Origin: Gari tellinella
Lineage: Eukaryota > Mollusca > Bivalvia > Cardiida > Psammobiidae
DNA length: 64,000 nucleotides
NCBI GenBank assembly: GCA_922989275.2
Contig: OV277867.1
Span: forward strand, 3,844,001-3,908,000
Direction: 5' to 3'
Under the pieces are notes generated by a model. That model saw nothing but the letters and a program-made list of their open reading frames with translations. It had not been told where the DNA came from and ran no database searches. Each line of letters begins with the position of its first letter. Positions within the stretch are counted from its first letter, which is position 1. Positions 35,368-63,383 of the stretch are shown here, piece by piece. The position numbers and the translations under genes are program-made.

Positions 35368-35437
35368 TCAATCCATTTTATGCGATTTCTCTGGCTTCAC
35401 TGTTATTATTCGACTGAACCGTTTACCATCAAATGAC
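35368..35437 (-). CDS. Hexosaminidase terminal exon and stop
   Basis: The 70-bp exon has acceptor cttgtgattacag. It encodes the final strand, FDGKRFSRIITV, then a Lys-rich tail and TGA at 35368-35370. The D-G-K-R-F/Y-S-R motif matches the end of bacterial chitobiase, so the protein is complete at its C-terminus. Confidence 0.9.
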
Positions 35438-38400: not shown

Positions 38401-41400
38401 TTTGGTTATGTGAGAAAAAGAATGTCACTTGTCCATCTTTGAGACAAGTTGATCTCAACCTCATCTAGAATAGAAAAGTTATTAAGCTCCTCAAGGCTCT
38501 CTTAACCCATAGCCTGTTTCTAGTTTTGAAGACAGGTACCCACTTAACCCTTTGAACCCTAGTCCCGCATATAGGCGTGATTTTCAAACAGTGTACATGT
38601 GAATAGTACACATGTCCTATGCAAACAGTGAAGACCCAGATCAGAGGGCTCCGTAAGGAGCCCTCTGATCAGGGTCTTCACTGTTTGTCACAATGCCAAA
38701 CATTGACAAAAACAACCCTTAACCCATTAAGCCATACTGACTCATTTTGACTCATTGCGCAATAGCCTCATACTAACTCATTTTGACTCACTTTAATCAA
38801 CTAGCATGCATTGAGGTGAGCACTGATAATTGTTAATCGCTTATGAGTTAATGGGTTAAAAGTCAGATATGGACTAGACTAAAGTCGAAACTGGAATGGT
38901 TCATTTAAAGTTTCAGGGAGGAAAGAGTTAAAGTGGTTTGAAAGTAAAGCAGAATGGGCCCCAAGGCTTTAAGCTACAATCTGCTAGGATGCAGAAAATA
39001 TTTATTTTGGTACATGTTCATGACTGTATAATTGGCACTATTTTCTTCAGTGGAAGAATACAATGTGAATAAAATGTGCTAAAAGTCCCTTTTATGACAG
39101 AAAGGGTCAATAACGTGTCAATTCTAGACTCGATTGAGATCAGTTTGTCTCAAAGATTGACTCATGATAGATTTTATATGTCTACTTACCTTGTGCGAAT
39201 CTTTAGTTGACCTGTTATCGGCATATTGTGTTGGATTATTTTCCATGTTTTCTCTGCCTCAACAAAGTACTCAATATCTAACCCTGGGAACTCTGTTCGA
39301 AACATCACTTTCCCGTCCTCAACCCTGAAATTGTTTATGAATTCTTCATAAAGTACTTTAACCCATTGCCCCATAGAAGCGACTTTTAGTGTTTTTAATT
39401 TACTCCTCCGCTGAAGAAAATAGTTCCAGTTTATACCCTCATAAACAATTACAATAACAAATATTTCTATATAGCCTAGCAGATGATAGTTTAAAGCAGG
39501 CTGAAAGTGAAGCAGAATGTGCCTTAAGGCACATTCTGCTTTACTTTCAACCTGCTTTAAGTGATCACCTATATTTGATGTTTAAAACGGGTTATTGGGT
39601 AACGGGTTAAGAACTGCGTACTCATACAGTGGGAAACATGCCAGATTCCTATTTAACCCATTACCCCATAGCCTGTTTCTAGTTCTGAAGACAGGTGGTC
39701 ACTTAAAGCAGGTAGAAAGTAAAGCAGAATGCACCTTAAGGTGCATTCTGCTTTACTTTCAGCCTGCTTTAAGCTATTAACTGCTCGAATATAAAAAATA
39801 TTTCTTATTATTTTTATTTGTGACAGTATAAATTGCAACTATTTTCTTCAGAAGAGGATTTAATTAAAGGCGTAAAAAGGGGTTAACCAATTACGCCTTT
39901 AATTCATACCTCCAATAAAGAAAAGTTTCATTTCGTACAGTAATGAATGTGAAACGTAAGAAATATTTCATAGTAGACAGGGCTCCAGATAAGAGGGAGT
40001 AATCTGAACAAATCCAACATTTTCTCTTTCATGCAGCACCAAATCCTATGGTGTTACTACTCATTAGAATCGTCTCTTTGAGACGATTCTAATGAGTAGT
40101 GACACCATAGGGTTTAAAGCAAAAATAAAGGTTTTAGTTTTTGAAATACTCCCTTTATCTGGAGCCCTGAGTAGATAGTAAGTCATAGTAAATAGTAGCT
40201 TAAAGCAGGTTGAAAGTAGAGCAGAATCCGTCTTCAGATGCATTCTGCTTTAATTGTTAACCAGCTTTAAGTGGTCACCAGCCTTCAAAACTAGAAATAG
40301 GATATGGGGTAATAGGTTAACCCTCTATCTCACTTATAGAGCAGGCCCGTAGAAACAATTATAGTAAGCAAGCAAATTTTTATATATTTGTACTAAAAAA
40401 GGCCTAAAAACGCTTGTTTTTACCTAAATTTTAACGCACAACCAAAAAAAAAATAAAACGTTGTCAAAAGATAAAAAATCGGAGGTGCCCCCCCAATGTT
40501 GAGTGACCAATATAGAGTGTGCCCCCCCAATCCAATTTTGCTTCCTACGGGCCTGTAGAGGCAGGTTGAAAGTAAAGCAGAATGTGCCTTAAGGCACATT
40601 CTGCTTTACTTTCAGCCTGCTTTAAGCTTAAATCTGCTAGGCTATATATCTCATCCGGATCCAAGCTGTTTGACACTCGGACAACATTTTCAGCAATTTT
40701 GAGCAACTTTGAAGCACTTTGAAACATGAAGCAGACGAGAAATATAGCAGACGACAATTTATTTGGCGGGCTAAGGGTTAACTTATTCATCCCTGAAACT
40801 TCACATGGATAATTCCAGGGTAAAATTATTTTGAACAAATCTTAATGCAAAAGCAATTCAATCAAATGAAGAAAATGACAATTTATTTTGATCTGAGTAG
40901 AAAACTGTTTGGGGCCTGATCAGATGCCAGTTGGCCTGGCACCTTCCATGAGTTCAGTAAAGAAATTGATGGCCGTCGATGGCCATCGATTGCGAGTTCA
41001 ACTGTTGGCTACCGGTCTGAAATACAGTGGAGAAAACGTTATTCTTCCGTTCAAACGCAAACGCATTGCAATGAAATATACAAAATGACAACTTTTTAAC
41101 AGTTCTGACTACCAGTTTTAATCTGAGTGGCAAACAGTTTGGAGCCAGATCAGACGCCGGGTTACCCGGCGTCTGATCTGGCTCCAAACTGTTTGCAATG
41201 AAAAAAATGGTTAAAGTTTAAACGCGGTTATTTGGAAATAAAACGTTATCTCTACTGTACTGTGCACGCTGTACATTGGACACAAACTGCTAACTTAAAC
41301 AGTAAACAGTGGAAACTGAACACGAAACTGATCTGATTCCAAATTGTTTGTAATGAAAATCATAGTTTTAGCATAAATGCATTTATTTAAGAAATGAATG

Positions 41401-44400
41401 GATTTTTTCGGCGTTCAAGCGCAATTCATGGTAAATTTGCCGATAATTTTCTGTCGTTCATTTCGCTTGAATGCCGAAAAAATCTGTTCATTTCTTATAT
41501 TTACATTTGTATTTGCTGTAATTTCTAATATTAGATTAACATTTTGTTAGTACGCATGTATGTTTAATCCATATTAGAGGTAGATAACACAAATAATGTG
41601 AACCCTATAAGGAACAGCCATGACCGATTTACTATAGCTGTGTACATTCGAAAGCAGAAAAATAAGTCCCATTGTTTACATTCTAAATCAACAACTTGAC
41701 AGTTTGGCGCGAAAAATGCCGATTTTTGACGTCATTGAAAGTGACGTCGTTTTAAAGTAGGATAAATATATCAGGTTTTTTGTCATAAAGAAACCCAGAT
41801 AGCCGCTGTTTATAAGGTATGTCAATTTTCTTGCAATAAAACTCATTAATAAAGAAGAAATTTAGTCGGGAATCATGGTTTTCACTAATAGGAAGGCATA
41901 GATCGGTTAAGAACAAATTTTGAAAAATCTGCCAAATGTTTGCTGTCAAAGTTCCAAAGATTAATTCGCGAATGAAAATTGCATATGCCCTGCCTCCCCT
42001 TCGAAACTTATCAACAAGTCCCGCCCTCTCGAAAAGTGGTGTTTATATATGAAATGAACAGCAGTTTTTTCAATGGAATTGAATGGGGCGATTGTAAATA
42101 TTGGGAAATAATAGTATCATCCCCAATGTACAGACTGAATCCTAAGCTCGTATATCGTTACTTTCTGTATGGGGATAATGACTGGCATGAACAACAGCCC
42201 AAGTTTTAAACATGGCAAACTTAGACACATCTCAAACTTGCTTAAAGCATGCTGGCAGCGAAATGTTTGGATACAGATTAGCTTATTTAACATCTATTGA
42301 GGACTCTTTGATTAAAAGCGCTCATAGTTCTCACTGCAAATAGCTATGACGTCATTGACGTGTGTGTATAGGATATGCTAATGAGCTTTTACTGAGAATC
42401 TCCGTCGGTATCCTCGAGTATAAACAAACTGGATTTAAAACTCGACTTATTTCCATAAATTTCTTGGGTTTGTATGCAATATTGCCTAAAAAATCACCAC
42501 GTTTTTCTTCTTTTTATATGTAACAATTACAACAGTGCCATAAATTTCATGTTAGAAAATAGCTCGATATTGGTAATTTGAGAGCAAAACTCTGGCTATA
42601 AGCCAGTTTGAAGTTTGACATAGATACTGACTTACCTAGCCCCTGGAGGTGGAACCCTATAGTATACCCTGAGCCTATCTAGCCTCCTTAGTTCTCTACT
42701 GCCAGTTTACTAACTTACCTAGCCCCTGGAGGTAGAACCCTATAGTATACCCCGAGCCTATCTAGCCTCCTTAGTTCTCTACTTCCAATATACTAACTTA
42801 CCTAGCACCTGGAGGTGGAACCCTATAGTATACCCCGAGCCTATCTAGCCTCCTTAGTTCTCTACTGTCAGTTTACTAACTTACCTTGCAACTGGAGGTG
42901 GAACCCTATAGTATACCCCGAGCCTATCTAGCCTCCTTAGTTCTCTACTGTCAGTTTACTAACTTACCTTGCAACTGGAGGTGGAACCCTATAGTATACC
43001 CCGAGCCTATCTAGCCTCCTTAGTTCTCTACTGTCAGTTTACTAACTTACCTAGCCCCTGGAGGTGGAACCCTATAGTATACCCCGAGCCTATCTAGCCT
43101 CCTTAGTTCTCTACTGTCAGTTTACTAACTTACCTTGCAACTGGAGGTGGAACCCTATAGTATACCCCGAGCCTATCTAGCCTCCTTAGTTCTCTACTAC
43201 CAGTATACTAACTTACCTTGCAACTGGAGGTGGAACCCTATAGTATACCCCGAGCCTATCTAGCCTCCTTAGTTCTCTACTACCAGTATACTAACTTACC
43301 TTGCAACTGGAGGTGGAACCCTATAGTATACCCCGAGCCTATCTAGCCTCCTTAGTTCTCTACTGTCAGTTTACTAACTTACCTTGCAACTGGAGGTGGA
43401 ACCCTATAGTATACCCCGAGCCTATCTAGCCTCCTTAGTTCTCTACTACCAGTATACTAACTTACCTTGCACCTGGAGGTGGAACCCTATAGTATACCCC
43501 GAACCTATCTAGCCTCCTTAGTTTTCTACTACCAGTATACTAACTTACCTTGCCCCTGGAGGTGGAACCCTATAGTATACCCCGAGCCTATCTAGCCTCC
43601 TTAGTTCTCTACTACCAGTATACTAACTTACCTTGCCCCTGGAGGTGGAACCCTATAGTATACCCCAAACCTATCTAGCCTCCTTAGTTCTCTACTACCA
43701 GTATACTAACTGACCTTGCCCCTGGAGGTGGAACCCTATAGTATACCCCGAGCCTATCTAGCCTCCTTAGTTCTCTACTGCCAATATACTAACTTACCTA
43801 GCACCTGGAGGTAGAACCCTATAGTATACCCCAAGCCTATCTAGCCTCCTTAGTTCTCTACTACCAGTATACTAACTTACCTTGCCCCTGGAGGTGGAAC
43901 CCTATAGTATACCCCAAACCTATCTAGCCTCCTTAGTTCTCTACTACCAGTATACTAACTTACATGTACATTGTACCTTGCACCTGAAGGTGGGACCCTA
44001 TAGTTTGCCCCGAGCCTATCTAGACTCCTTAGTTTTCTACTGCCAATATACTAACTTACCTTGCACCTGGAGGTGGAACCCTATAGTATACCCCAAGCCT
44101 ATCTAGCCTCCTTAGTTCTCGACTGCCAATTAGGTTCACAAATGCCGCATATTCCAAATCTTTGGCCTTTTTGTCTGTGTCACTTGAGATTTTGTCCTCC
44201 CAGGGCGATTTATGCCAAGCCCTTTCGGCTACAGCTAAGAGTCTTGGAAATAACATATAATCCATCTGTTCGTCTGTCCGGACTGTTTCACTCCATAGTT
44301 GGGCTTGAATACCTGAAAACATTTAAACAGTGCAGTAGTAATCCATTTACCTCTCCAGGGCTGCCATAAGTTGGCATGAAAAATCCTAAGATTCAAAATT

Positions 44401-47400
44401 TGCATTTTTCAAGTGCTATTTTAAGAATCGTACCTTTACCACATAGCCTGTTTCTAGTTGTGTTGACATGTGACTGCTTAAAGCAGGCTGGAAGTAAAGC
44501 AGAATGCGCCTTAAGGCGCATTCTGCTTTACTTTCAGCCTGCTTTAAGCTACCATGTACCAGAAAAAAATCCGAAGATTAAGGAAAAACCCGGAGAAATG
44601 GCAGCCCTGCCTCTCTGTTTGTTACTTGTCTTAACCCTTTTCCCGACAGAAGCGACTTTTAGCATTTTTAATTTATTCCTCCGCTGAAGAAAATAATTCC
44701 AGTTTATACCTTCATGAACAATAACCATAATATATTTTATATAGCCTAGCAGATGGTAGCTTAAAGCAGGCTGAAAGTAAAGCAGAATGTGCCTTAAGGC
44801 ACATTCTGCTTTACTTTCAACCTGCTTTAAGTGATCACCTGTATTTAATGTTATAAACGGGTTATTGGGTAAAGGGTTAACTTCTCTTAACAGACCTGCA
44901 AATCCTGTTAACCCTTAGCCCGCCAAATAAATTGTCGTCTGCTATATTTCTCGTCTGCTTCAAGTTTCAAAGTGCTTCAAAGTTGCTCAAAATTGCTGAA
45001 AATGTTGTCCGAGTGTCAAACAGCTTGGATCCGGATGAGACACCGAGTTACTCGGCGTCTCATCCGGATCCAAGCTGTTTGCATATGGAGCTATAGTCGT
45101 GACTGGCAGGCTAAGGGTTAAGATGGCTCCTCTGAAAGCACAGTATGATGTGGAAGAGAGGGGTATCCAAAGTTGGTCTCTGCCTTTGATATGGATATCT
45201 TTAGTAAAACCTCTCTATTAGGACCACTTAATTGTGTTTACTATAAGGCGCTTATAGTAGGTGACTGCTTAAAGTAAGGTGACAGTAAAACAGAAAACTC
45301 CTTTAGGAGTTTTCTGTTTTACAGTCACCTTCCTTTAAGTTTAACCCTTAGCCTGCCAGTCACGACTATAGCTCCATATGCAAACAGCTTGGATCCGGAT
45401 GAGACGCCGAGTAACTCGGCGTCTCATCCGGATCCAAGCTGTTTGACACTCGGACAACATTTTCAGCAATTTTGAGCAACTTTGAAGCACTTTGAAACTT
45501 GAAGCAGACGAGAAATATAGCAGACGACAATTTATTTGGCGGGCTAAGGGTTAAGCCATCACCTGTCTTTTATACAATCAACTAACCTTCTTGTATACAT
45601 GTTATTTCACTGTAATAGGCTTTGTGGTGTAAGAAACTAAGAATAAAACGTTTAAGGGGAAGGGGGTATCCAAAGTTGGTGTCTTCCTTTAGTATTGCTA
45701 TTGTTGGTAATTCCACTATGATCTGCTTTGTGGTGTAATATTAAGAGTTAAACATTCAGGTCAAAAACGTTGAAATCAGATTTTATAATCCCTCCCTTTA
45801 CCCCGTTACTACCATGACTTCATCTGCTTAACCCATTACCTCATAAATACATCTTTTTACGCTTTTAATTCATTCCTCAACTAAAGAAAATAGTTCCAAA
45901 TTATACCTTCATACATATTTACCAGAGAAAATATTTTCTATATCCTAGAAAATTTTGGCTTAAAGAAGGCTGAAAGTAAAGTAGAATGTGCCTTAAGGCA
46001 CATTCTGCTTTACTTTCAACCTGCTTTAAGTGGTCACTTATTTTCAAAACTAGAACAGGCTATGTGGTAATGGGTTAAAAAAAATGCTGTCATCTTCTTT
46101 TCTCAGATGTAAATTTTTAAGTTCTAGCTATGCACAGCTGCGGCAAATAGGCCATATTAGACAGTACCTTTCCCCTGAAGCTACAAACTTTGGTCAATTC
46201 TTTGGTCATATTGAAAATTGACTACTGCAACTCACTGCTGTATGGGATTCCCTATGGGAAACACTCTAAAAATACTGTAGCGTGTGCAAAATACAGCAGT
46301 CCGTATCATAACCAGGACTCCTCGGTACATATAGGATCTATCATGAGTCGAGATTAAAAATAAGCTGATCTCAACCAAGTCTAGAGTTGAAATGTTATTA
46401 AGCGAGCCATGGCATCTATTCTAGACTAGGTTATACTGTAATAATAATAATAATAATATTTGAGAAATGGGTGTCAAATAGGTTGGCGTCAGATCAGACA
46501 CAACATTCCCCAGTACATAAATTATCATCTGGATCCAAACTTTTTACAAAGATGACGTAAGTTGCCTATGGCAAGGAATTGGTTGAGTTTACCTGCGATG
46601 TTTTCTGGCTTTTTCAGCTTGTAGCAGTCTGTTTTATCGTGTACAGTGTTGGGACACTCCAATTTCATATCACCTTCCGATATCTTTGAGCTGAATTCCC
46701 ACACATCTTGCAGCGATATTTTTCTTGCTGCCCAGTACAGACCCCTCTCCTCGGGGTCTGCCTCATACGGGTGGTCGAAGTAAAAGTGAGATCCATACGC
46801 CAGAATAACCTACATAAAATATCACCAAAGCAACTTTTTATGAGATCCATACGCCAGAATGACCTACATAAAATATCACCAAAGCAACTTTTAATGAGAT
46901 CCATACGCCAGAATGACCTACTTAAAATATGACAATGGTAACTACATGTTGTAACTATTTGCATGCTGGGAAATTTTTTCGTCTGCATCATTTGTTGTCT
47001 GCATCATTTGTCAACTATTGTTCTAAAAATAGAATTTTCAAAGTTTCTTTTTCGAAACTGGGTCATAGTTTCAAACTGTTTGGATCCTGAAGAGACTGCA
47101 TTATGATGCGCCTCTGCTGGATCCACACTGAATTCCAGAATAATATTTTGTAAATAGTTTCAGTTTAGGAAAAGGTCTCAAGAAAAAAATAATTGCAAAG
47201 AAATCTTAATGAGGATGATTGAATTTAAAACACAGGCTCTAAAGGCTAAACAAATTTAACCCTTTAACCAATAGCCTGTTTCTAGTATTTAACATATGTG
47301 ACCTATTAAAGTAAGCACATTCTGCTATACTTTCAGCTTACTTTAAGTTACTATCTGCTAGTATATAGAAAATATTTCTTATAGTTCATATTCATGGCAG

Positions 47401-50400
47401 TATAAAATGGAACTATTTTCTTTGGCGGATAAATAAAATGAATGCGCTAAAAGTCGCTTCTATAAGGGAAAGGGTTAAATAACTTGATGCTCTACCTATT
47501 GAGCAAGCCAGGCAAATGTTAGATGTTGGTGTGAATTGTATGCTATTTTATACAGTCATGAATATGCACGATACAAAATGTTATCTATATTCTAGCAGAT
47601 GGTAGCTTACAGCAGGCTGAAAGTAAAGCAGAATGTGCCATACAGCACATTCTGCTTTACTTTCAACCTGTTTTAAGCGGTCTCATTTCTTCAACACTCG
47701 AAACAGGCTATGGAGTAGATGTTTAACTACCAATCAATAATCGCATTATAAAACTAACTGGTTATATTGTACCTTATATCCATAGTTTGCCAGGAGTCTC
47801 AAACGATGGGGTGTTGTCTCCATTAAAGGTCTTTTCCACACATACACCAATATATCTCTGAAATATGTAATTGTAGTATTGACATTGTTAAGAAATATTC
47901 GAGGCAATCCAGCCTAGTCAAGCCTTTCTGTTACAGTAAAAACCTCTCTATTACGACCACTAAATTTTGTAAATTATTAGGTTGTTTAAGATAGGTGACC
48001 GCTTAACTCTTTCCTCCCTGAAAAATTAAATGGACAATTCAAGTTTCCATTTTAGTCTAGTCCATTTCTGACTTTTAAGGGTTGTTTTTGTCAATGTTTT
48101 GCATTATGACAAACAGTGAAGACCCAGATCAGAGGGCTCCGTAAGGAGCCCTCTGATCTGGGTATTCACTGTTTGCATAGGACAAGTGCACTTTTCACAT
48201 GTATACTTTTGAAAACAATGCCTATATGCCGGACTAGGGTTCAAAGGGTTAAAGCAAGGTGACAGTGAAACAGAAAGCTCCTTTAGGAGCTTTCTGTTTC
48301 ACTGTCACCTTGCTTTAAGCTGCCACCTCTCTAATATACAATCAATTAGCCTTCGTTTTAGTGGTCTTAATAGCTGTATAGTGTAGAGTACATTATTATC
48401 TTCCATTTAACCCATTACCCTGTAAATACGCTTTTTACACCTTTGATTCATTCTTCCACTGAAGAAAATAATTCCAATTTTACACAGTCATAAATATTTA
48501 CCATAAGAAATAGTTCCTAGTATATCCTGGCAGATGGTAGCTTAAAGCAGGTTGAAAGTAAGGCAGAATGCTTAAAGTGGTCACATATCTTCAAAACTAG
48601 AAACAGGCTATCAGGTAATGGGTTAAATGAAACTAAACAAGACTACAATGCAATGAAATGTCACTGTCTGTATCGGACTGGTAGTCTTTTTTTATCTTCG
48701 ATTCATGGTACTTGTTTTTGTAACACCCCTGTCACACAGAGCCATCGGTGATAGATTGGTTGTTTTTTCGCCAAACTAGGGAGGGGACCGATGGCAAGCT
48801 ACTTACTACCGACATCACCTATTAGCCCCTGTTTTACACCTATCAATCGCTATTGGGTAAAGATGAGTTTCGTTGGCGAAAAATCACCGATTGGGATTTT
48901 TAAACATGCTTAAAATTCTCGATCGGTGAAAATATTTTACAAATAACCAATTGACAACCTGTCTACTACCGATATCACCGACAAGTCACCGATAAACCAC
49001 CAATAAAGCACCGATGAACTGATACTTACCACCGATGAAAAAAGATGAGAATTAAAACGCAGGATCTCGTCGGTTTTCATCGGTTGTTAATGGCAGTTCA
49101 ATCGGTGATCAATCGATTGCCGCCAGCATTTCATCAGTGTTTTATCGGTATTTCAATTATTGATATGGGCGCTTTTAATCGGTGGCCCATAGGAGTTCAT
49201 GAGTTGCCAATCGGTGGCGGGATGGCGTTTCACCGATTGAACAATTATTTATCACCGATACCCGGTCACACAGAATGCCTGAAATTAAATCACTTATGAC
49301 AACCGATCAAAACAGCAAATAATTCGACCGATTGGGTACCGATTTAAGCCCGACCATCTGTGTGACCGGGGCATAAACGACCGGGGCATAAACAATCTAG
49401 AAGCAGTCATTACCCAGTACGGAAGTTCTCCCTACTTTATAATTATCATGCAGGGCTCCAGATAAGAGAGGGTAAACTGAACGAATCCAACATTTTCTTA
49501 CTTATTTCGACACTAAATCCTATGTTGTTACTACTCATTAGAATCGTCTCTTTGAGACGATTCTAATGAGTAGTGACACCATAGGGTTTAATACAAAAAT
49601 AAAGATTTTAGTTTTCGAAATCCTCCCCTTATCTGGAGCCCTGTCATGGAGTCTGCTTCAAGGTCAAACACACGAGAAAGATATGATTACGCTGTAAATA
49701 CGAACATTGTTACTAAAATTTACTTGTTTAATGTTCTTAAATAGTTTTATCCAATTTTAAAGCGATAAACAACGCAAAAGTGCTTCATAGTTGGGAAACA
49801 ATCTTGGGACTCGGTATATTTTGCATGGGACTCAACTTCTGACCTACAGGACTCAGTGAATTTCAAAGCTAATACAAACACTGACTTTATGTTAAATGGT
49901 GACCCTGGGGCCAGGCCGATTTTGACTCCCGGGGCAACTTTGCCAAATAACTAAGCTATGGCGTTTGTGGTTTTTGTGACAAAAGTTTTTTTTAAGATTT
50001 CCTTATTGTTTCACTTTGGTTGCCATGACAACCAGATATCTGCATTGTTTCAAATCTTTAAACAACTTTGAGTACAGTATTTCTAGTGATGAATTCCTAT
50101 AAGTGAAGCTTATCAAAGACTAACATATCCCTATTTTGAAGTTAAAATGGGCTCAGCCAAGTTTTAGCTTAGAAAACTTAACCCTTAGCCCGCCAAATAA
50201 ATTGTCGTCTGCTATATTTCTCGTCTGCTTCAAGTTTCAAAGTGCTTTAAAGTTGCTAAAAATTGCTGAAAATGTTGTCCGGGTGTCAAACAGCTTAGAT
50301 CCGGATGAGACGCCGAGTTACTCGGCGTCTCATCCGGATCCAAGCTGTTTGCATATGGAGCTATAGTCGTGAGTGGCAGGCTAAGGGTAAACCCTTTACC

Positions 50401-53400
50401 CAATAGCCTTCTTTAAGTTTTGAAGATAGGTGGCCACTAAAAGCAGGTTGAAAGTAAAGTAGAATGCACCCTTGGGTGCATTCTGCTTTACTTTCAGCCT
50501 GCTTTAAGCTACCACCTGCTAGAATTAAGAAAATATTCTTTCTGATACATATTCATGATTGTATAGATTGGAATTATTTTCTTCCGCAGAAGATTAAAAG
50601 AATGCGCTAAAAAACGCTTCTATAAGGTAAAGGGTTAACTCTTTCCTCCCTGAAACTTTAAATGGAAAATTCCAGTTTCCATTTTAGTCTAGTCCATTTC
50701 TGACGTTTAAGGGTTGTTTTTGTCAATGTTTGGCATTATGACAAACAGTGAAGACCCTGATCAGAGGGCTCCTTTTGGAGCCCTTTGATCTGGGTCTTCA
50801 CTGTTTGCACAGGACAAGTGTACTATTCACATGTACACTGTTTGAAAAGGACGCAAAAGCGGGACTAGGATTCAAAGGGTTAAGCAGATTCAAGTGAGTG
50901 AGACTCCCCGTTTGTGAAATTTGACATAATACTAACTTGTTCTCAAACTGATCCCTAGGAAATGGCGTGCCAAGTGCTTTTTCAACATTAGGGTGTGTTA
51001 TCATTCCATCTTCCCACGCGGCAAGCGACAGGCCGCGCTTGGAAACTAACTCTGATACTTCTTGTATGAAATATTTCATCTTCCCAAAGTGAGATTTTAA
51101 TTCTGGAAAACAAAACAAAAAATACAGTAAAACCTTTCTATTACGACCAGTAAAACGAAGGATATTTGATGATTTTGATGCAGAAAGACAGATGACAGCT
51201 TAAAGCAAGGAGACAGTAAAACAGAAAGCTCCAAAAAGAGCTTTCTGTTTTACTGTACCTTGATTTAACAAGTCACCTGTAGTAAACATCTAATAATTAA
51301 CAAATTGTTGTGGATCTAAATTGAAGTTCTGGGATTGTTCCGTCAACCCGGTGCCTGCCTGGTGGATCTTGATGGTAGGGATAATGACTCTGATCTCTTT
51401 GAAACCAGCTGGGGGGGGGGGGGGGGGGGTCTGCGGTATAATTCTTGGACAGCTGTCACCGGGAAACAGCTAACAGCTGATTTCTATTTAGATTAAATTC
51501 TTAGGTTTGTTCTTATTTATGATAAGGTTTATGGTCTCTTATAAAAATATTTTAGTTATTGTCACATGCTATTTTTCCTAGTTCTATTGCATTAGGCGGC
51601 CTGCATTGGGCGCTCTACTATTATTTCTATCAGACGGCAACCCAATGCTGATTGATAGGGGTATTGTGTTAGCCGTTTTGGGGGCTGTCTTTTGTATGTT
51701 TTTCTAGACCAGGGTTACAGATAAGGGGAGTATTGGAGTATTTACCCAATTTAAATTGTGAAAAAAGCAATTGTTTTTCAGAACAAGGAGTCTAACAAAA
51801 AGCAAAAGAATTTAGGAAAAAGCAAAGAAATTTTGGAAACCTAATCAAAATATGAATAATACCCATTAACAAAAACTCCCAATACCCAATGAAAATTGCA
51901 AAAACCCAATTCTGTAAAATATCAAGGAGTAAATACCCAATTGCATCAAAACCTTATCTGTAACCCTGTAGACCATGTAAATCCATAAGGTATCATGTCT
52001 AATTTACATCTAATTGTAGTTATTTGTCTATTCTGGCTTTGTAGGTACATTTATGTAATTTCATGTGAAGCGCTTTTGAATGCACAACCCCTGTGTGAAA
52101 AGAGCCCTATATAAGTCTGGTACAATAAAAATAATAATAAAAGGTGTATTCTGTTTTATTTTCAGCCTGCTGTAAGTGGTCACCTGTTTGCAAAAACTAC
52201 AAACAGGCAATGAGGTAAAGGTTTAACTGTAATGGGAAAATCGTTTATCCAATGCACCATCTGCAGGGGTCCAGATAAGGGGAGTATTTCGAAAACAAAA
52301 ATCTTTATTTATGCATTAAACCCTATGGTTAGAGACGATTCTAATGAGTAGTAACACCATAAGATTTTGTTGTGTAATGAGTGAGAAAATTTTGTTTTGT
52401 TCCCTTTACTCCCTCTTATCTGGAGTCCTTCTCTGGTTATTTTAAGTCTGTTTATAACATAACAGATGGCGTGAGCGTTGAATAACACCCGTTGTTTAAA
52501 TGTCACAACGTCGTTTACTTGTGACGTCATTAAAATGCGTTCTATGCGTTCGATTCCAACGTCTTCATTCCATCATGTAGATTCAATTCATAGATTTTTG
52601 GTGTAATTAATCAATATTAGATCTACATGAAAGTGTTTATTAATACATATAACAACATAAACATTATGCTAGTGAACGCGGTTAATTTGGAACAACTTTT
52701 TTCCTGTATAGATCTACTTATATCGCGCTTAGCATTCACTTGACCTCAAAGGCTGCGATAAATAGCATTTCTAGGTTATGTTATAAAAAGAATATAACAT
52801 TCGTGTTAATAATTTATTGGATTTATCAAACTCGTCGTTTTAGAAAACGATAAAAACTCGGCAAAGCCTCGTTTTTATCGTTTTCTAAAAGACTCGTTTA
52901 ATAAATCCAATAAATTATGAACACTCATGTAATATCCTATATATAAATCACATTAATGATCTTAACCATACACTACAAGGTTTAAACATGCAGGGAAGAA
53001 GTTTTCTCACATAACTACCCTTGTTTTCTATAGGGAACAACAATCATGAATATCCTTGTCTCCAACATGTGTGTGATCAATATCATGACGTCACTATAAC
53101 ATCACTATTTATAACAGCGTTTTGACGTCACCCGGGTTCCAAAAAATGCCTATTGCTTTAAAATATAGCTTAACCCATTAACCCATAAATACACCTTTTT
53201 ACGCCATTAATTTATTCCTCCACTGAAGAAAATAATTCCTATTTACAGTCATAAATATAAGTAAGATAAAAAAATATTTTTATATCTTAGAAGATGTTAG
53301 CTTAAAGCAGGCTGAAAGTAAAGCAGAATGTGCCTTAAGGAATATTCTGCTTTACTTTCAACCTGCTTTAAGTGGTCACCTATTTTCAAAACTAGAAACT

Positions 53401-56400: not shown

Positions 56401-59400
56401 GCAGGTTTAAAGTAAAGCAGAATGTGCTTTAAGGCACATTCTGCTTTACTTTTAACCTGCTTTAAGTGGTCACCTATCTTCAATACTAGAAAAAGGCTAT
56501 GGGGTAATGGGTTATAGATGCAGTTACTTATATTTTGCAATGTGTTGTATGCATGTCAAATGATTCAATGAAATATATTGTCTGCATGTTAAATGTGTCA
56601 GTGGTTAATTCACTAGCAGTTCATATCATTATCTGCAAGAAACGTACTTAACCCTTAGCCCGCCAAATAAATTGTCGTCTGCTATATTTCTCGTCTGCCC
56701 CAAGTTTCAAAGTGCTTCAAAGTTGCTCAAAATTGCTGAAAATGTTGTCCGAGTGTCAAACAGCTTGGATCCGGATGAGACACCGAGTTACTCGGCGTCT
56801 CATCCGGATCCAAGCTGTTTGCATATGGCGCTATAGTCGTGAGTGGCAGGCTAAGGGTTAATGAAAGATTTAGAGCAAATTTCACTTAGATATTGGCTAA
56901 GTCTTATTTAAAAATCAATTTTTAAACACTTAAACCTCTATAAATAAGCTTTTTAAACAATTAACCCATTCCTCTTAACCTATTTCTAGCTTTAAAAACA
57001 AGTGACCACTTAAAGCAGGTTGAAAGTAAAGCAGAATGTGCCTTAAGGCACATTCTGCTTTACTTTCAGCCTGCTTTAAGCTACCATCTTCTAGGATACG
57101 GAAAATATTTCTTCTGGTACATATTCTTGGCTGTATAAACTGGAACTTTTTTCTTCAGTAGAGGAATAAATGAGAGGTGTAAAAAGGCGTTTTTAAGGGA
57201 TTATGGGTTAAGCGGATAATAGCTTCTATTACACGCTCCTACAAAAAATAACTGCCACAAGCTCTGCAAAAAATACCCACATTCGTTGATACATTTTTCG
57301 AAAAAAAAAAAAAAAAATTTAAGGCGAGTGAAAAACTAGGGTTGGTCGGGTTACCGGTGTCAGATCAAATTTGGACCCCCGTAAAAAATGGACCCGCGGG
57401 TCCATTTTTGATAGCGAAATATGGACCCCCCCTGTAAATTTTGAACCCACCCTCAAAAGTTGGTAATGCTTCTCCCTAATGTAAAATATTAATTACTCCT
57501 ATCCTGAGGTTGTTATTCCCTGCAAATTATTTCAGTTGGAGAGGGGGATCCAAATTTGATGGCATCAAAATTGGACCCCCCTCCCTTGTCAACTCCTAAC
57601 CATCAAACCTTAAGTCATTTGATCTACACATCAACTTTAATTTTTTTCAATTAGTTGTTTAGTTTAAGTGATGTTTTTTTTCTCCTATCCTGAGGTTACT
57701 ATGCCCTGCAAATTATTTCAGTTGGAGAAGGGGGGGGTCCAAATTTGATGGCATCTAAATCTTTACATGGGGGGTCCATTTTTTACGGGGGTCCAATTTT
57801 TATATGACACCGGAAACACAGGTATTTTTTTATTATGCCTAACTAGAATTGACTATGGGGTTAAGGGTTCAAACTTTCTCTGCCAAATTTAAACCATCCC
57901 ATGGCCTGTTTCTCTAGTTTTAAACACAAGTGACCACCTAACCCTTTAAGCCATTGATACCCATTTAAAGCAGTTTGAAAGTAAAGTATTCTGCTTTACT
58001 TTCAGCCTGCTCTAATCTACCATCTGCTACCATATAGAAAATATTGGTCTTGGTGCATAATCAGTACTGTATATTGAGGAATTATTTTCTTCAGTAGAGG
58101 AATAAAGTGAAGGCGTAAAAATGAGTTAACCCATTACCTCTTAGCCTATTTCTTGCTTCGAAAACAGGTGACCACTTAAAGCAGGTTGAAAGTAAAGCAG
58201 AATGTGCCTTAAGGCACATTCTGCTTTACTTTCAGCCTGCTTTAAGCTACCATCTTCTAGGATATGGAAAATATTTATTTTGGTACATATTCTTTGCTGT
58301 ATAAACTGGAACTTTTTTCTTCAGTGGAGGAATAAGTAAGAGGCGTAAAAAGGCGTTTTTAAGGGGTAATGGGTTAAGGCTGCATAAACAGGCATATCTA
58401 CGGGTTAAAGGGTTACGGTGGAGAAAACATTATTCTTTCCGGTTTAAACCCAAACGAAATGCAAAAGCATTGCACTAAAACATAGAAAAGGACAATTTAT
58501 TGACAATTCTGACTATTTGTATTCATCGGAGTGGCAAACAGTTTGGAGCCTGATCAGACGCCGGGTTACCCGGCGTCTGATCTGGCTCCAAACTGTTTGC
58601 AATGGAAATAATAGATTTAGCATAAACAAGTTTTTTGGGAAAGAATAACATTTTCTCTACTGTAACAAGAGGGTGAACCAGAGCATTGCTGTCACTGCAA
58701 GTTACCTGGAAGTTCTTTAGACAGATTCTTGCATACTTCCGAAGTAGCCCAAGATTGTGTAGGGACCTCATCTCCACCAAAATGGAATACTTTTAATGGT
58801 TGAACATCCTTATATATATCCTGCAGCGATGATAGTATCTTATCCACAAATTTGTATGTCTTTGACATGCATGGATTGATGACGTTACCAAGAAAACCTT
58901 GCACCGACTTGAACGAACCCTTGTCACTTTCATCAATGACGTCATAAATCTCTGCTTTCATGGCGACCCTGTGGGACTTCTGGGATTTTGCATGAATGGA
59001 TCTAATGGCTGCTCGACTGTGACCAGGAATGTCTATTTCGGGGATCACCTCTATATGTAAACCTTTAGCATATTTCAACAAATCCCTGTACACGCCCACA
59101 TCAAAGTACCCAGTTCCTGAGGTATTCGTGTAGGGCCCTGAACCAAGCATAGGCATAATGCATTGTTCTTCTTCTGGGTCATGACAACGTCTTGAACCTA
59201 TCTGGAAATACAGAAGAACCTCTCTATAACGACCACAAAAACAAAGCAGGGCTCCAGATAAGAGGTAGTTTTTTCAACAAATCCAACATTTTCTCACTCT
59301 TTTTAGCACCAAATCCTATGGTGTTACTACTCATTAGAATCGTCTCGAAGAGACGATTCTAATGAGTAGTGACACCATAGGGTTTAATTCAGAAATAAAG

Positions 59401-62400: not shown

Positions 62401-63383
62401 AAGGGCAAGAAGTTTCTTGAAACTGCTAACATGAACGGAAGGGGGAACAGAAATAATGAAATTGTAATGGAAATGCGACACCAACGACTGGGTGACAATA
62501 TAATCTCTCTGGAGACAGTCCGGCGAGCTAAAAATTACCCAACATGCAAATAAAAAATATACTGTGTATAATGCAAAGAAAATAATTATTGCAGGTTGTT
62601 TGCTTTAACTCTTTCCTCCCTGAAACTTTAAATGGACAATTCCAGTTTCCATTTTAGTCTAGTCCATTTCTGAATTTTAAGGGTTGTTTTTGTCAATGTT
62701 TGGCATTGTGACAAACAGTGAAGACCCTGATCAGAGGGCTCCTTTTGGAGCCCTCTGATCAGGGTCTTCACTGTTTGCATAGGACAAGTGTACTATTCAC
62801 ATGTACACTGTTTGAAAAGCACGCCTATATGCGGGACTAGGGTTCAAAGAGTTAACACATTACACCATAAATACACCTTTCAATGTCTTAAATTTATTCC
62901 TCCACTGAAGTAAATAGTTCCACTTTATACAGTCATGAATATGTACCATACGACATATTTTCTATATTCTAGCAGATTGTAGCTTAACCCTTTGAACCCT
63001 AGTCCTGCATATAGGTGTCATTCCAAACAGTGTACATGTGAATAGTACACTTGTCCTATGCAAACAGTGAAGACCCAGATCTTTCGGAGCCCTCTGATCA
63101 GGGTCTTCACTGTTTGTCATAATGCCAACCACTGACAAAAACAACCCATAAAAGTCAGAAATGGACTTGACTAAAATGGAAACTGGAACTGTCCATTTAA
63201 CGTTTTAGGGAGGAAAGAGTTAAAGCAGGTGACATACTTGGATTAGTTCAGGCATCCCTGGTATTTCTATTCGCCAGCCTTCGTCGTCCGAGAGGTGCAG
63301 ATGTAGTTTGTTCATTTTGTACATGGCCATAGCTGCCATGGTCTTCTTCATCTGTTCTGGATCATGGAAGTTTCGTGACACAT
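35368..63383 (-). CDS. Chitobiase-type beta-N-acetylhexosaminidase (GH20), 5'-truncated by window edge
   Basis: Eight minus-strand exons (63383-63238, 59201-58706, 51102-50937, 47857-47773, 46809-46593, 44312-44060, 39324-39190, 35437-35368) join in frame, 1568 nt including TGA. GH20 enzymes remove terminal GlcNAc/GalNAc from chitin oligomers or glycans by substrate-assisted catalysis. Seen: VSRNFHD, HLHLSDDEGWRIEIPGMPEL, EVIPEIDIPGHSRAA, the catalytic Asp-Glu in FHFGGDEVP (codons 58767-58772), AAWEDG, ERGLYWAAR, QLWSET, AERAWHKSPWE, and a C-terminal Ig-like segment. Order and spacing follow bacterial-type chitobiase (Serratia, Vibrio) rather than lysosomal HEXA/HEXB. The N-terminal carbohydrate-binding and GH20b parts (~350 residues) should lie right of base 64000. 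Many introns make it a true nuclear gene, not contamination. Secretion cannot be judged because the N-terminus is missing. Confidence 0.93.
35498..35893. mobile_element. Family D MITE split by a family A MITE
   Basis: Left part ctgataagagggagtaaact, right part caaatcctatggtgttgcca .. cttatctagagccca. The family A copy sits between them at a TA. Confidence 0.8.
35533..35782. mobile_element. Family A MITE, copy 13 (inverted)
   Basis: 250 bp, full length, in the last hexosaminidase intron, 95 nt from the terminal exon. Confidence 0.93.
35925..37238. mobile_element. Family B MITE split by a CTCACCTG element
   Basis: ttaaccctttactccatagc .. gtggatgaatgaattaa, then aaaaaggcatatcaatgg .. gtaaagggttaa at the far side. 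Core apex tgtcttacggcgca. Confidence 0.85.
36128..37211. mobile_element. CTCACCTG element, copy 1, with internal ~165-bp repeats
   Basis: Ends aagagggtctgaaggccctg..gctcacctg and ctagctcaggtgagctaaaa. Inside, agataactcttgacctattt blocks recur at about 36537, 36684, 36851 and 37012. A second copy lies at 59873-60782. Long repeats with these ends are common in bivalves. Confidence 0.8.
37369..37599. mobile_element. Family B MITE, left core arm lost
   Basis: ttaaacctttaccttataga .. ctatagggtaaagggttaa; only aaagcaggcctta remains of the left arm. Confidence 0.82.
37607..38114. mobile_element. Family B MITE containing a family C MITE
   Basis: ctttacaccatagcctgttt .. ttaagcta, interrupted, then aagctagcatctgcttgaat .. 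gggggagagggttaa. Confidence 0.88.
37726..37980. mobile_element. Family C MITE, copy 9, nested in family B
   Basis: cagggcttccat .. atggcagccctg, 255 bp, flanked by AAGCTA on both sides. Because the host is a known repeat, the target duplication is clear. Confidence 0.92.
38544..38931. mobile_element. Family E MITE nested in B, containing a 141-bp element
   Basis: ttaaccctttgaaccctagt .. gggaggaaagagttaa, apex ggctccgtaaggagcc; its conserved aacaacccttaaaagtcag is split at TTAA. Confidence 0.9.
38719..38859. mobile_element. Family K: 141-bp TTAA element, innermost of the nest
   Basis: ttaacccattaagccatact .. cttatgagttaatgggttaa, with iterated actcattttgactca inside. The only copy I found. 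Confidence 0.85.
39190..39324 (-). CDS. Hexosaminidase exon: C-terminal Ig-like domain
   Basis: The 135-bp exon has acceptor caatttcag and donor ag|gtaagt, phase 2 to phase 2. It encodes VEDGKVMFRTEFPGLDIEYF and a strand ending LKIRTR, the chitobiase C-terminal Ig-like domain (P-G-L-x-I-x-Y motif). A family M repeat reaches to within about 10 nt of the donor, and a family B element starts 33 nt upstream of the acceptor. Confidence 0.9.
39358..39610. mobile_element. Family B MITE
   Basis: ttaacccattgccccataga .. gttattgggtaacgggttaa, apex tgccttaaggca. It begins 33 nt upstream of the exon at 39324. Confidence 0.9.
39978..40169. mobile_element. Family D MITE, copy 2, nested in family B
   Basis: cagggctccagataagaggg .. 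tctggagccctg, hairpin ctcattagaatcgtctcttt / inverse. Confidence 0.92.
40345..40557. mobile_element. hAT-like element with CAGGCCCGTAG ends, nested in family B
   Basis: caggcccgtagaaac .. cttcctacgggcctg; TAGAG on both sides. Internal ggtgcccccccaat occurs twice. Confidence 0.8.
40640..40779. mobile_element. Family F fragment
   Basis: tctcatccggatccaagctg .. ggcgggctaagggttaa: right half only, joined to a family B element. Confidence 0.85.
41023..41259. mobile_element. Family A MITE, copy 14
   Basis: tacagtggagaaaacgttat .. ttatctctactgta with perfect core hairpin; subterminals diverged. Confidence 0.88.
41385..41500. repeat. Hairpin with aagaaatgaatggatttttt arms
   Basis: aagaaatgaatggattttttcggc with near-perfect inverse, ~110 bp in total. 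Confidence 0.75.
41501..42628. other. Intron spacer, nothing firm
   Basis: Single-copy-looking DNA apart from a diffuse match of 42370-42570 to 19200-19400. The 76-codon ORF at 41979-42209 matches nothing I recognise. Confidence 0.4.
42629..44129 (-). repeat. 83-bp minisatellite made of exon end plus splice donor, 18 units
   Basis: Each unit on the minus strand is ~69 nt equal to the end of the hexosaminidase exon (coding ELRRLDRLGVYYRVPPPGAR), then gtaagttagtata. The exon's own end is the rightmost unit (44041-44123). ggaggt recurs every 83 bp from 42645 to 44070. Nearly all units keep gtaagt; one has gtcagt (43712 area). One unit near 43960 carries a short insertion. 83 is not a multiple of three. 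Confidence 0.95.
44060..44312 (-). CDS. Hexosaminidase exon: end of barrel, source of the 83-bp minisatellite
   Basis: The 253-bp exon has acceptor atgttttcag and a consensus donor ag|gtaagt, phase 1 in, phase 2 out. It encodes QAQLWSETVRTDEQMDYMLF, AERAWHKSPWE and ends LDRLGVYYRVPPPGAR. Reading past the donor meets TAA at once. The last ~69 nt plus the donor are the unit of the tandem array at 42629-44129. Confidence 0.95.
44356..44609. mobile_element. Family C MITE, copy 10
   Basis: cagggctgccataa .. atggcagccctg, apex gcgccttaaggcgc; flanks share CCTCTC. It lies 44 nt upstream of the exon at 44312. Confidence 0.92.
44631..44880. mobile_element. Family B MITE
   Basis: ttaacccttttcccgacaga .. 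attgggtaaagggttaa, apex tgccttaaggca. Confidence 0.9.
44908..45121. mobile_element. Family F MITE, copy 2
   Basis: ttaacccttagcccgcc .. ggcaggctaagggttaa, 214 bp. Confidence 0.93.
45198..45620. mobile_element. Family I repeat containing a family F MITE
   Basis: agtaaaacctctctattagg, hairpin taaagtaaggtgacagtaaa / inverse. Family F (45341-45554) is inserted at TTAA just after the hairpin. Confidence 0.78.
45341..45554. mobile_element. Family F MITE, copy 3 (inverted)
   Basis: ttaacccttagcctgcc .. ggcgggctaagggttaa, 214 bp, nested in family I. Confidence 0.93.
45828..46078. mobile_element. Family B MITE
   Basis: ttaacccattacctcataaa .. tatgtggtaatgggttaa, apex tgccttaaggca. Confidence 0.9.
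46118..46335 (+). pseudogene. LINE reverse-transcriptase fragment, frameshifted
   Basis: Reads LRQIGHIRQYLSPEATN, then after frameshifts LDYCNSLLYGIP and LQRVQNTAVRIITR-like pieces in different frames. This is the region after the catalytic domain in CR1/L2-type LINEs. Followed at 46438 by (ATA)n. Confidence 0.7.
46336..46440. mobile_element. Family M fragment
   Basis: atataggatctatcatgagt .. gctgatctcaaccaagtcta, the end region of family M in inverse orientation. Confidence 0.6.
46593..46809 (-). CDS. Hexosaminidase exon: ERGLYWAAR segment
   Basis: The 217-bp exon has acceptor tttatgtag and donor g|gtaaac. It encodes VILAYGSHFYFDHPYEADPE, ERGLYWAARKISL and a Cys-containing loop (LECPNTVHDKTDCYKL). 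Its acceptor with about 25 nt of exon is repeated twice more upstream in the intron (see repeat at 46792-46930). Confidence 0.93.
46792..46930 (-). repeat. Triplicated splice acceptor (~57-bp units)
   Basis: gagatccatacgccagaat-acctac occurs three times, joined by ataaaatatcaccaaagcaa. On the minus strand each copy has a tag acceptor and the first 25 nt of the exon. The two extra copies run into stop codons (TAA or TGA) soon after. Confidence 0.92.
46945..47150. mobile_element. Family H hairpin element, copy 4
   Basis: tttgcatgctgggaaatttt, ctattgttctaaaaatagaa and gtttggatcctgaagagact with an imperfect inverse. Confidence 0.65.
47256..47478. mobile_element. Family B MITE, decayed core
   Basis: ttaaccctttaaccaatagc .. 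aagggaaagggttaa; the left core arm is reduced to ttaaagtaagc. Confidence 0.82.
47545..47728. mobile_element. Family B MITE, left end lost
   Basis: tacagtcatgaatatgcacg, core hairpin with apex tgccatacagca, right end ggctatggagtagatgttta. Confidence 0.78.
47773..47857 (-). CDS. Hexosaminidase short exon
   Basis: The 85-bp exon has acceptor acatatttcag and donor aag|gtacaa, phase 2 in and phase 0 out. It encodes DILVYVWKRPLMETTPHRLR then LLANYGYK, matching the chitobiase segment that leads into the V-I-L/V-x-x-x-x-Y-F-D strand. It is too short to be found by length alone; phases and homology place it. Confidence 0.88.
47934..48378. mobile_element. Family I repeat containing a family E MITE
   Basis: cagtaaaaacctctctatta, then family E (48003-48252) at TTAA, then hairpin taaagcaaggtgacagtgaa / inverse with apex gctcctttaggagc. 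Confidence 0.82.
48407..48626. mobile_element. Family B MITE, core hairpin deleted
   Basis: ttaacccattaccctgtaaa .. atcaggtaatgggttaa; the right arm of core 2 is missing. Confidence 0.82.
48728..49374. mobile_element. ~645-bp element with CCCCTGTCACACAGA ends and ATCGGTGA iterations
   Basis: Left cccctgtcacacaga, right tctgtgtgaccgggg. Between them atcggtga / tcaccgat and near variants recur more than fifteen times in both orientations. No transposase ORF. Confidence 0.8.
49451..49643. mobile_element. Family D MITE, copy 3
   Basis: cagggctccagataagagag .. atctggagccctg; flanks share TCATG. Confidence 0.93.
49644..50177. other. Intron spacer, nothing firm
   Basis: gaccctggggccaggccgat and nearby text resemble the inside of CTCACCTG elements (59.9-60.6 kb), but no ends are visible. 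Confidence 0.4.
50178..50882. mobile_element. Chain of family F, B and E MITEs sharing TTAA sites
   Basis: Family F 50178-50391 (right TTAA mutated to GTAA), family B 50387-50638 (apex gcacccttgggtgc) and family E 50635-50882 (apex ggctccttttggagcc) are joined end to end through single shared sites. Confidence 0.88.
50937..51102 (-). CDS. Hexosaminidase exon: AAWEDG strand
   Basis: The 166-bp exon has acceptor gttttccag and donor aa|gttagt, phase 1 in and phase 2 out. It encodes ELKSHFGKMKYFIQEVSELV and SLAAWEDGM. The Trp-Glu-Asp-Gly motif follows the catalytic strand in GH20 barrels. A family I end lies 21 nt upstream and a family E element ends about 54 nt past the donor. Confidence 0.92.
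51124..51290. mobile_element. Family I repeat, copy 4
   Basis: tacagtaaaacctttctatt, hairpin taaagcaaggagacagtaaa / inverse with apex gctccaaaaagagc. It begins 21 nt upstream of the exon at 51102. Confidence 0.75.
51411..51429. repeat. Run of 19 G
   Basis: An uninterrupted G homopolymer; length may be affected by sequencing error. Confidence 0.9.
51540..52140 (+). pseudogene. LINE 3' tail, split by a MITE
   Basis: gaagcgcttttgaatgcaca and agccctatataagtctggta followed by aataaaaataataataa is the usual 3' tail of CR1/L2-type LINEs. A MITE (51710-51968) interrupts it. Confidence 0.6.
51710..51968. mobile_element. hAT-like MITE with CAGGGTTACAGATAAGG ends
   Basis: cagggttacagataagggga .. aaaccttatctgtaaccctg, TAGAC on both sides. 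The tip resembles family D (cagggctccagataag). Confidence 0.88.
52141..52226. mobile_element. Family B fragment
   Basis: gtattctgttttattttcag .. caatgaggtaaaggtttaa; right half only. Confidence 0.75.
52266..52428. mobile_element. Family D MITE, copy 4 (decayed)
   Basis: caggggtccagataagggga .. ctcttatctggagtcctt, with one hairpin arm shortened. Confidence 0.85.
52449..52942. mobile_element. J element, copy 2, with long hairpin
   Basis: ttataacataacagatggcg .. cactcatgtaatatcctata. Near its right end is a hairpin ttattggatttatcaaactc / inverse with tip actcggcaaagcctcg. Confidence 0.7.
53040..53580. mobile_element. Family M repeat, copy 2, containing a family B MITE
   Basis: tatccttgtctccaacatgt .. 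tgactcatgacagatcctat; family B sits at 53170-53421 (ttaacccattaacccataaa .. ggggtaatgggttaa). Confidence 0.75.
53170..53421. mobile_element. Family B MITE nested in M
   Basis: Apex tgccttaaggaata is mismatched. The corresponding site at ~38396 in the other M copy is empty. Confidence 0.88.
53673..53924. mobile_element. Family B MITE
   Basis: ttaaccctttccccccatag .. atcaggtaaagggttaa, apex gcgccttaaggcgc. Confidence 0.9.
53980..54182. mobile_element. Family H hairpin element, copy 5
   Basis: ttaactcttagcatg .. cagcatgcaaagagtgaa, hairpin caaacagtttgtatcctgat / inverse: the best-bounded H copy, ends inverted. Confidence 0.75.
54262..54622. mobile_element. Family G element, copy 3
   Basis: agcgctccctctctacaact .. 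gttgtagagagagatcactg, hairpin aaacagcttgaatcctgatc inside. Confidence 0.75.
54925..55385. mobile_element. Family G element, copy 4, with tandem part and nested family D
   Basis: tctttacagcgacacccaat is present twice (54947 and 55023), the second interrupted by family D. The right part holds hairpin ggcaaacagcttgaaaccag / inverse. Confidence 0.75.
55049..55241. mobile_element. Family D MITE, copy 5, nested in family G
   Basis: cagggctccagataagaggt .. tatctggtgctctg; flanks share ATGGGC. Almost identical to the copy at 59247. Confidence 0.92.
55583..55705. mobile_element. Family D fragment
   Basis: gctccagataaggagagtaa and ctactcattagaatcatctc; right arm decayed. Confidence 0.7.
55712..55930. 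mobile_element. Family B MITE, right end lost
   Basis: ttaaccctttcccatttaga, core 2 hairpin with mutations, ending gtcgcctatcttcataag. Confidence 0.8.
55931..56263. other. Intron spacer, nothing recognised
   Basis: AT-rich DNA between two family B copies. Confidence 0.4.
56264..56515. mobile_element. Family B MITE
   Basis: ttaacccattaccccataaa .. ctatggggtaatgggtta, apex tgctttaaggca. Confidence 0.9.
56648..56861. mobile_element. Family F MITE, copy 5, with known empty site
   Basis: ttaacccttagcccgcc .. ggcaggctaagggttaa, 214 bp; empty site at 33302-33305. Confidence 0.95.
56961..57211. mobile_element. Family B MITE, with known empty site
   Basis: ttaacccattcctcttaacc .. gggattatgggttaa, 251 bp; empty site at 33405-33408. 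Confidence 0.95.
57320..57835. mobile_element. ~500-bp element with ggacccccgtaaaaaatgga ends
   Basis: accggtgtcagatcaaattt, ggacccccgtaaaaaatgga at the left and tccattttttacgggggtcc, atgacaccgg at the right. tcctatcctgaggttg..atttcagttggag is repeated inside. Confidence 0.7.
57888..58377. mobile_element. Two family B MITEs sharing a TTAA
   Basis: 57888-58129 (decayed core) and 58126-58377 (ttaacccattacctcttagc .. aaggggtaatgggttaa, apex tgccttaaggca). Confidence 0.85.
58414..58664. mobile_element. Family A MITE, copy 15
   Basis: tacggtggagaaaacattat .. acattttctctactgta with perfect core; subterminals diverged. It ends 41 nt from the donor of the catalytic exon. Confidence 0.9.
58706..59201 (-). 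CDS. Hexosaminidase exon: catalytic core with Asp-Glu pair
   Basis: The 496-bp exon has acceptor gtatttccag and donor g|gtaact. It encodes IGSRRCHDPEEEQCIMPMLG, a chitobiase-specific insertion, EVIPEIDIPGHSRAA and FHFGGDEVP with the catalytic Asp-Glu at 58767-58772. A family I repeat end starts about 8 nt upstream of the acceptor and supplies its polypyrimidine tract; a family A MITE ends 41 nt past the donor. Confidence 0.95.
59210..59246. mobile_element. Family I end at a splice acceptor
   Basis: tacagaagaacctctctata then acgaccacaaaaac is the family I terminus. On the minus strand it gives the pyrimidine-rich tract just before the acceptor at 59202-59203. Confidence 0.7.
59247..59439. mobile_element. 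Family D MITE, copy 6
   Basis: cagggctccagataagaggt .. tatctggtgctctg, flanked by ACAAAG; nearly identical to 55049-55241, including the same gtgctctg end. Confidence 0.93.
59445..59580. mobile_element. Family H fragment
   Basis: aattggatttggaccctgat / gacaggatccaaactacatg and ttctaattttagaaaataga. Confidence 0.55.
59600..61400. repeat. ~150-180-bp degenerate tandem repeat, interrupted
   Basis: Blocks cacagattttgaaacctaaa, ggtcaaggtcac, tccatatacacatgcata and gaaagcaatacctcaagata recur about six times. A CTCACCTG element splits the array at 59873-60782. Confidence 0.85.
59873..60782. mobile_element. CTCACCTG element, copy 2
   Basis: caagagcccaatggggcata, ttcgctcacctgag at the left; tttggctcaggtgagctaaa at the right, with gacggacgactgacgctgga inside. 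Internal aaactgtgacccc..ggggccaattttgacccc blocks repeat twice. Confidence 0.82.
61408..62395. mobile_element. 988-bp TA element with TACAGTATAATCTGCAT ends
   Basis: tacagtataatctgcatgat at the left, ataatgcagtttatactgta at the right, plus repeated gtcggata motifs near both ends. TA flanks and tip fit a pogo/Tigger-type element; no transposase frame remains, so non-autonomous. Confidence 0.8.
62605..62855. mobile_element. Family E MITE
   Basis: ttaactctttcctccctgaa .. ggttcaaagagttaa, apex ggctccttttggagcc; shares its right TTAA with the next family B copy. Confidence 0.93.
62852..63229. mobile_element. Truncated family B MITE containing a family E MITE
   Basis: ttaacacattacaccataaa .. gattgtagc, then family E 62984-63223, then ttaaagcagg. 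The rest of family B is missing; it stops about 8 nt from an exon. Confidence 0.85.
63238..63383 (-). CDS. Hexosaminidase exon: start of catalytic barrel
   Basis: The 146-bp exon enters in phase 1 and leaves in phase 0; donor caa|gtatgt, acceptor atttcaag. It encodes VSRNFHDPEQMKKTMAAMAM then the diagnostic HLHLSDDEGWRIEIPGMPEL. It is squeezed between TTAA elements: a family B fragment starts 22 nt upstream (63405) and a truncated B/E composite ends about 8 nt past the donor side (63229). Confidence 0.92.

Follow-up and report, generated by a model that had tools for sequence, protein, structure and literature searches.

Minisatellites at exon/intron boundaries

The minisatellite of the human gene IFI6 (G1P3, 6-16) has a unit of 12 bp. 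It reportedly supplies alternative splice donors, as the title of Turri et al. 1995 has it. IFI6 isoforms that take two downstream repeat units as donors have been described with reference to that study (PMC4526556). In amphioxus, the exon/intron boundaries of globin genes were found in minisatellite-like tandem duplications called "mirages", a name taken over from earlier work on Adh3 (PMC3087553). The present text concerns a repeat of this kind in a bivalve, Gari tellinella, where the end of a β-hexosaminidase exon and its 5' splice site (donor) form an array of 18 units. The array lies in a stretch of 64,000 nucleotides, here called the window (positions 3,844,001 to 3,908,000 of contig OV277867.1, assembly GCA_922989275.2); coordinates are those of the window, and the gene is read from its minus strand. 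The best reading, which we consider probable, is a mirage-type minisatellite that has grown by repeat turnover and is as a rule removed by splicing from the authentic donor.

In the amphioxus globin gene BflGb6 it is the acceptor edge that is repeated, in units of 150-160 bp that number 6 and 3 in the two haplotypes, while in BflGb9 it is the donor edge, with a unit of 157 bp; the clusters differ in length (PMC3087553). The Adh3 data and the authors' own reverse transcription PCR (RT-PCR) on the globins suggest regular splicing, although the repeated signals might still serve as cryptic sites and could give rise to new introns (PMC3087553). A mirage in troponin C was added later, together with similar imperfect repeats in PGBD5, and the Adh and troponin C mirages are reported to produce no aberrant mRNAs (PMC3902484). 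Units within a cluster undergo concerted evolution (PMC3087553, PMC3902484). Variable tandem repeats at an exon-intron boundary are also known from humans and may cause new introns (PMC2812944).

The clam array is therefore of an already known kind, since the amphioxus mirages and the human IFI6 donor minisatellite precede it, and the statement in an earlier note on this DNA that no case of this exact kind had been described is not supported. For bivalves, no account of a boundary-spanning minisatellite was found in the openly licensed literature. Like the amphioxus mirages, the clam arrays consist of minisatellite-like units at a boundary (PMC3087553, PMC3902484). They differ in lying in a bivalve gene, in the 18 units of the donor-edge array instead of the 6 and 3 of BflGb6, and in combining donor and acceptor edge types in two consecutive exons of one gene. 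Regular splicing is reported for the mirages, whereas the clam array is known from DNA alone. With IFI6 the clam array shares minisatellite units that carry splice donors, but in IFI6 the downstream units are used and three mRNA species result, whereas in the clam the unit is 83 bp long, use of a distal donor is putative, and the product would meet an immediate stop. Introns can also be gained by tandem duplication of exon sequence containing AGGT (PMC4974935), which, as in the clam, duplicates splice-site sequence; the clam array, however, lies in an existing intron and, to judge by its sequence, makes no new one.

The donor-edge array

The donor-edge array extends over 42624..44128 in 18 units of 83 bp. 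It starts in an exon of the β-hexosaminidase gene (44060..44312, 253 nt, with the authentic donor CAAG|GTAAGT after 44060) and continues into the adjoining intron, unit 1 being the real end of the exon. Each unit is made up of about 70 nt of exon end and about 13 nt of intron start, including the 5' splice site. Tandem Repeats Finder (TRF) gave a period of 83, 18.0 copies, 92% matches and a score of 2424, in agreement with the earlier note, which had described the exon end and donor as repeated every 83 bp in 18 units. Cutting the array at one constant anchor gave a length of 83 bp for 17 units out of 18; unit 2 is longer, at 96 bp, owing to an insertion of 13 bp (43964..43976, the exact ends varying with gap placement). 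Both flanks of the array are non-repeated sequence, and a blastn search of the window with unit 6 gave no match beyond 42600-44140 at E values up to 1. In our judgement, identity to the exon end in 18 copies is not a matter of chance.

The coding part is nearly unchanged from unit to unit, as had been claimed; in all 17 copies beyond unit 1, its last 70 nt agree with the authentic end of the exon (44129-44060) at 62-67 positions out of 70. The further claim that nearly all donors are intact is equally sound, with exact GTAAGT in 17 of the 18 units; the sole departure is unit 5, which has GTCAGT (43709..43714). In unit 2 the insertion parts GTAAGT from the AAG of the exon end and leaves a weaker donor that matches 8 of 9 consensus positions. 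The last donor, that of unit 18 (CTAG|GTAAGT, 42630..42635), stands shortly before the end of the array. Donors were scored by the consensus MAG|GTRAGT and by their predicted base pairing to the 5' end of U1. The consensus is matched at all 9 positions in 11 of the 18 units; elsewhere in the gene, 2 of 1422 GT sites reach this score, including the authentic donor at 39190. Predicted U1 pairing is -10.6 kcal/mol for 16 of the 18 array donors, including the authentic one, and weaker for units 2 and 5.

Such a ladder might recruit U1 small nuclear ribonucleoprotein (snRNP) and thereby prevent premature polyadenylation in the long intron that follows. The hexamers AATAAA and ATTAAA do not occur in 1431 nt of the array, as against 10 occurrences in the next 3304 nt of the intron. 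These are raw counts, however; the 4036-nt intron at 63237-59202 has 4 of them, and among the donor edges checked in the gene no other is repeated. A U1 sink is highly improbable, the least probable of the readings weighed here.

The array might also be raw material for a new intron, born at the exon edge, or for multi-step splicing with the units as tiny exons. An acceptor-like CAG stands 7 nt ahead of the exon end in all 18 units, and 11 of the 17 positions before this AG are pyrimidines, within the 8-15 seen at the gene's eight real acceptors, although the pyrimidine count is a crude measure. Intron gain from mirages has, as mentioned, been proposed for the amphioxus globins (PMC3087553). 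A 7-nt exon, however, would be much under the usual size and would shift the frame, and we hold this reading to be highly improbable.

Coding sequence across the array was considered and rejected. In the sense direction, all three frames of 44128-42629 are broken by 46-52 stops apiece, and the longest open run is 34 codons; the antisense frames have 26-29 stops each and a longest open run of 76 codons.

The acceptor-edge array of the preceding exon

A second array stands at the acceptor edge of the preceding coding exon (46593..46809, 217 nt, with the authentic acceptor before 46809). TRF places it at 46787..46930, with 2.7 copies of 54 bp, and it comprises three copies of ...A(A/T)GTAG|GT(C/T)ATTCTGGCG with exon-like starts at 46917, 46863 and 46809, the last of which is authentic. 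Both distal copies agree with the first 23 exonic nucleotides at 22 of 23 positions, and their 31 intronic nucleotides are identical at 30 of 31 and 21 of 31. The AG at the border is preserved in all three copies. Either distal copy, if used, would lead to a stop inside the repeat unit. The acceptor-edge array mirrors the one at the donor edge of the next exon in this gene. In both, the tandem unit spans a real exon/intron boundary including the splice site, and many units carry splice signals (GTAAGT and the border AG, respectively), which are two of the marks of a mirage minisatellite.

For the remaining six exons, no second copy of an edge turned up within 4 kb when up to 5 mismatches in 26 nt were allowed; for the last coding exon, the edge searched was its acceptor. 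The position of the arrays is by itself unremarkable: when the gene's five larger arrays were set down at random, at least two exons were hit in 25% of trials. These were the five TRF arrays scoring at least 250, picked post hoc, with eight weaker arrays and three overlapping rows within the gene omitted.

The host gene

The gene model comprises eight consecutive exons, from 63383 to 35368, with GT/AG borders, agreeing phases and an open frame of 522 codons. It represents the C-terminal part of the gene, the 5' part not having been found within the window. Its first 499 residues match the Pfam families Glyco_hydro_20 (E 8.5e-84) and CHB_HEX_C (E 1.5e-17). Together with D193-E194 of the GGDE motif, which are invariant across a five-sequence alignment and which we take to be the catalytic pair, these domains make the protein a GH20 β-hexosaminidase of the chitobiase type. 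The exon that carries the donor-edge array matches chitobiase structures (1qba, E 2e-21).

The first exon of the gene found within the window is 63238..63383, followed by the exon with the GGDE motif (58706..59201) and by coding exons at 50937..51102 and 47773..47857. The two exons with repeated edges come next. Beyond the array, 39190..39324 (135 nt) encodes the C-terminal domain after GAR, and the last coding exon (35368..35437) reads SFDGKRFSRIITVKPEKSHKMD and then stops; in alignment it falls in the C-terminal part of the homologue from Ruditapes. That homologue, a β-hexosaminidase-like protein of Ruditapes philippinarum, is the closest at 59% identity (58% in the five-sequence alignment) among the best 120 of 6984 proteins past the threshold, the set on which all homologue figures here rest; the remaining 119 reach at most 48%. 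A tRNA scan with bacterial settings predicted no tRNA.

Consequences of distal donor use

If the authentic donor were skipped, a TAA (44056..44058) would follow in frame directly after VPPPGAR, and exactly 67 residues of the full-length form would be lost with any distal donor. The earlier note, which had put the loss at about 67 residues, was right on both counts. With each of the 17 distal donors, the stop would precede the exon junction by 92-1420 nt. By the usual rule, a stop farther upstream of a junction than 50-55 nt leads to decay of the mRNA. Distal-donor mRNAs are thus predicted decay targets, and decay is the likelier outcome, ahead of a truncated enzyme.

Among the 120 homologues, the 74 that have a PPG-type motif keep tails of at least 39 residues after it, with a median of 67, and the motif is missing from the other 46, of which P0070 was inspected individually. 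P0118, from Mercenaria, has no Pfam C-terminal domain, but its sequence runs well beyond the motif. P0070, from the land snail Candidula unifasciata, also lacks the domain and stops at ...YHIPPP, near the predicted truncation point. It is the sole truncation-like case among the proteins inspected; its source labels it partial, and its ending may be just that of an incomplete gene model.

These results bear on the idea of a copy-number-dependent switch, in which the extent of distal donor use would follow the number of distal donors, and the product would be a truncated enzyme without CHB_HEX_C. The intact GTAAGT motifs, the strong U1 pairing and the TAA immediately after VPPPGAR are what such a switch would need, P0070 offers a possible natural parallel, and the IFI6 repeat units do serve as donors (PMC4526556). 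Against it stand the position of the stop, which is that of a decay signal, the tails kept by all 74 motif-bearing homologues, and a lack of donor-specific conservation among the units, in a test of little power. The amphioxus mirages, moreover, are reported to leave splicing undisturbed (PMC3087553, PMC3902484). We consider the switch very unlikely. A broader version, still unlikely, would treat the 18-donor ladder as a copy-number dial, longer alleles causing more distal-donor use and hence less full-length hexosaminidase through decay (or truncated enzyme), with help from the ladder of acceptors one exon earlier.

Repeat turnover

Across units 1-17, 17 of the 83 columns are variable, and these are evenly spread; unit 18, whose tail passes the array end, was omitted from this test. 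Two of the nine donor columns vary where 1.8 would be expected (P(<=2) = 0.73); of the six GTAAGT columns, one does (P(<=1) = 0.64). Since the donor columns are as variable as the rest of the unit, selection on the donors is without support, and donor-specific selection was rejected as not demonstrated, by a test that is weak at a mean pairwise divergence of 6%. Divergence rises with the distance between units (Mantel r 0.43, a value reached in none of 5000 permutations), and 8 of the 136 unit pairs are identical, which fits local repeat turnover. Within this set, the more divergent units include 1 and 2, but also 4.

Long near-identical arrays are commonly mis-sized in assemblies, and the eight identical pairs might be taken as a sign that the unit number, or the whole array, is an artefact. 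A mis-assembled mirage was noted in the amphioxus draft (PMC3087553). The variants that distinguish the units, however, follow an ordered pattern, the array passes into non-repeated sequence at both ends, and a second repeat of like kind stands at the preceding exon. An artefact is very improbable.

A mirage-type minisatellite would have been seeded as a tandem repeat at the exon/intron boundary and would have expanded from there into the intron. Unit 1, as the authentic exon end, would be held fixed by coding selection, while the other 17 units would turn over through unequal exchange or slippage and homogenisation. Homogenisation could preserve their donors without any selection for them. 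The exon would be joined from its own donor, and the entire array would leave with the 4.7-kb intron; exon definition would favour the 253-nt exon over alternatives of 349-1677 nt. If a distal donor were used now and then, the TAA after VPPPGAR would come in, and the outcome would mostly be mRNA decay. Donor choice, decay and neutrality are points that we infer, and the probable reading of a normally spliced mirage is supported by the amphioxus donor- and acceptor-edge mirages, for which regular splicing is reported.

Several considerations weigh against this reading. The pairing of -10.6 kcal/mol with U1 beats that of five of the six other donors in the gene, and equal tandem 5' splice sites can favour the intron-proximal one, which here would lead to truncation. 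The test for donor conservation has little power because of the mean divergence of 6%. Use of the authentic donor at 44060 is most likely, but as a deduction from the sequence. Length polymorphism is a feature of the amphioxus mirages, whereas the clam array is known from one haplotype. IFI6, finally, shows that such repeats are usable as donors (PMC4526556).

Other repeats in the window

Interspersed across the window is a 70-bp element whose arms form an inverted pair (TTTACTTTCAGCCTGCTTTAA and its complement), for example at 44478-44547, 47607-47676 and 39491-39560. Arm matches with up to 3 mismatches number 56 on the plus strand and 36 on the minus strand. In 30 pairs the arms are separated by less than 80 bp, and in 27 of these by exactly 28 bp. 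The element looks like a hairpin miniature inverted-repeat transposable element (MITE). A minisatellite at 24409-25270 (41-bp unit, 21 copies, 98% matches by TRF) contains 21 of the 56 plus-strand arm matches and is seemingly derived from one arm of the 70-bp element, since the same arm is found inside its unit.

An inverted repeat at 35198-35234, with exact 18-nt arms flanking one base (CAAAGTTAAAACGTGGCT-T-AGCCACGTTTTAACTTTG), sits 133 nt past the hexosaminidase stop codon and may be either another hairpin element or a structure of the 3' untranslated region. At 33497-33646, a 74-bp unit occurs twice with 100% matches by TRF, and is probably a recent duplication.

Implications

The clam gene takes boundary-spanning minisatellites beyond the lancelets, to a bivalve, and has their donor and acceptor forms together within one gene. 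With 18 near-identical donors after one exon, it is a natural test of the choice among equal 5' splice sites, and also of whether exon definition alone guards the correct donor.
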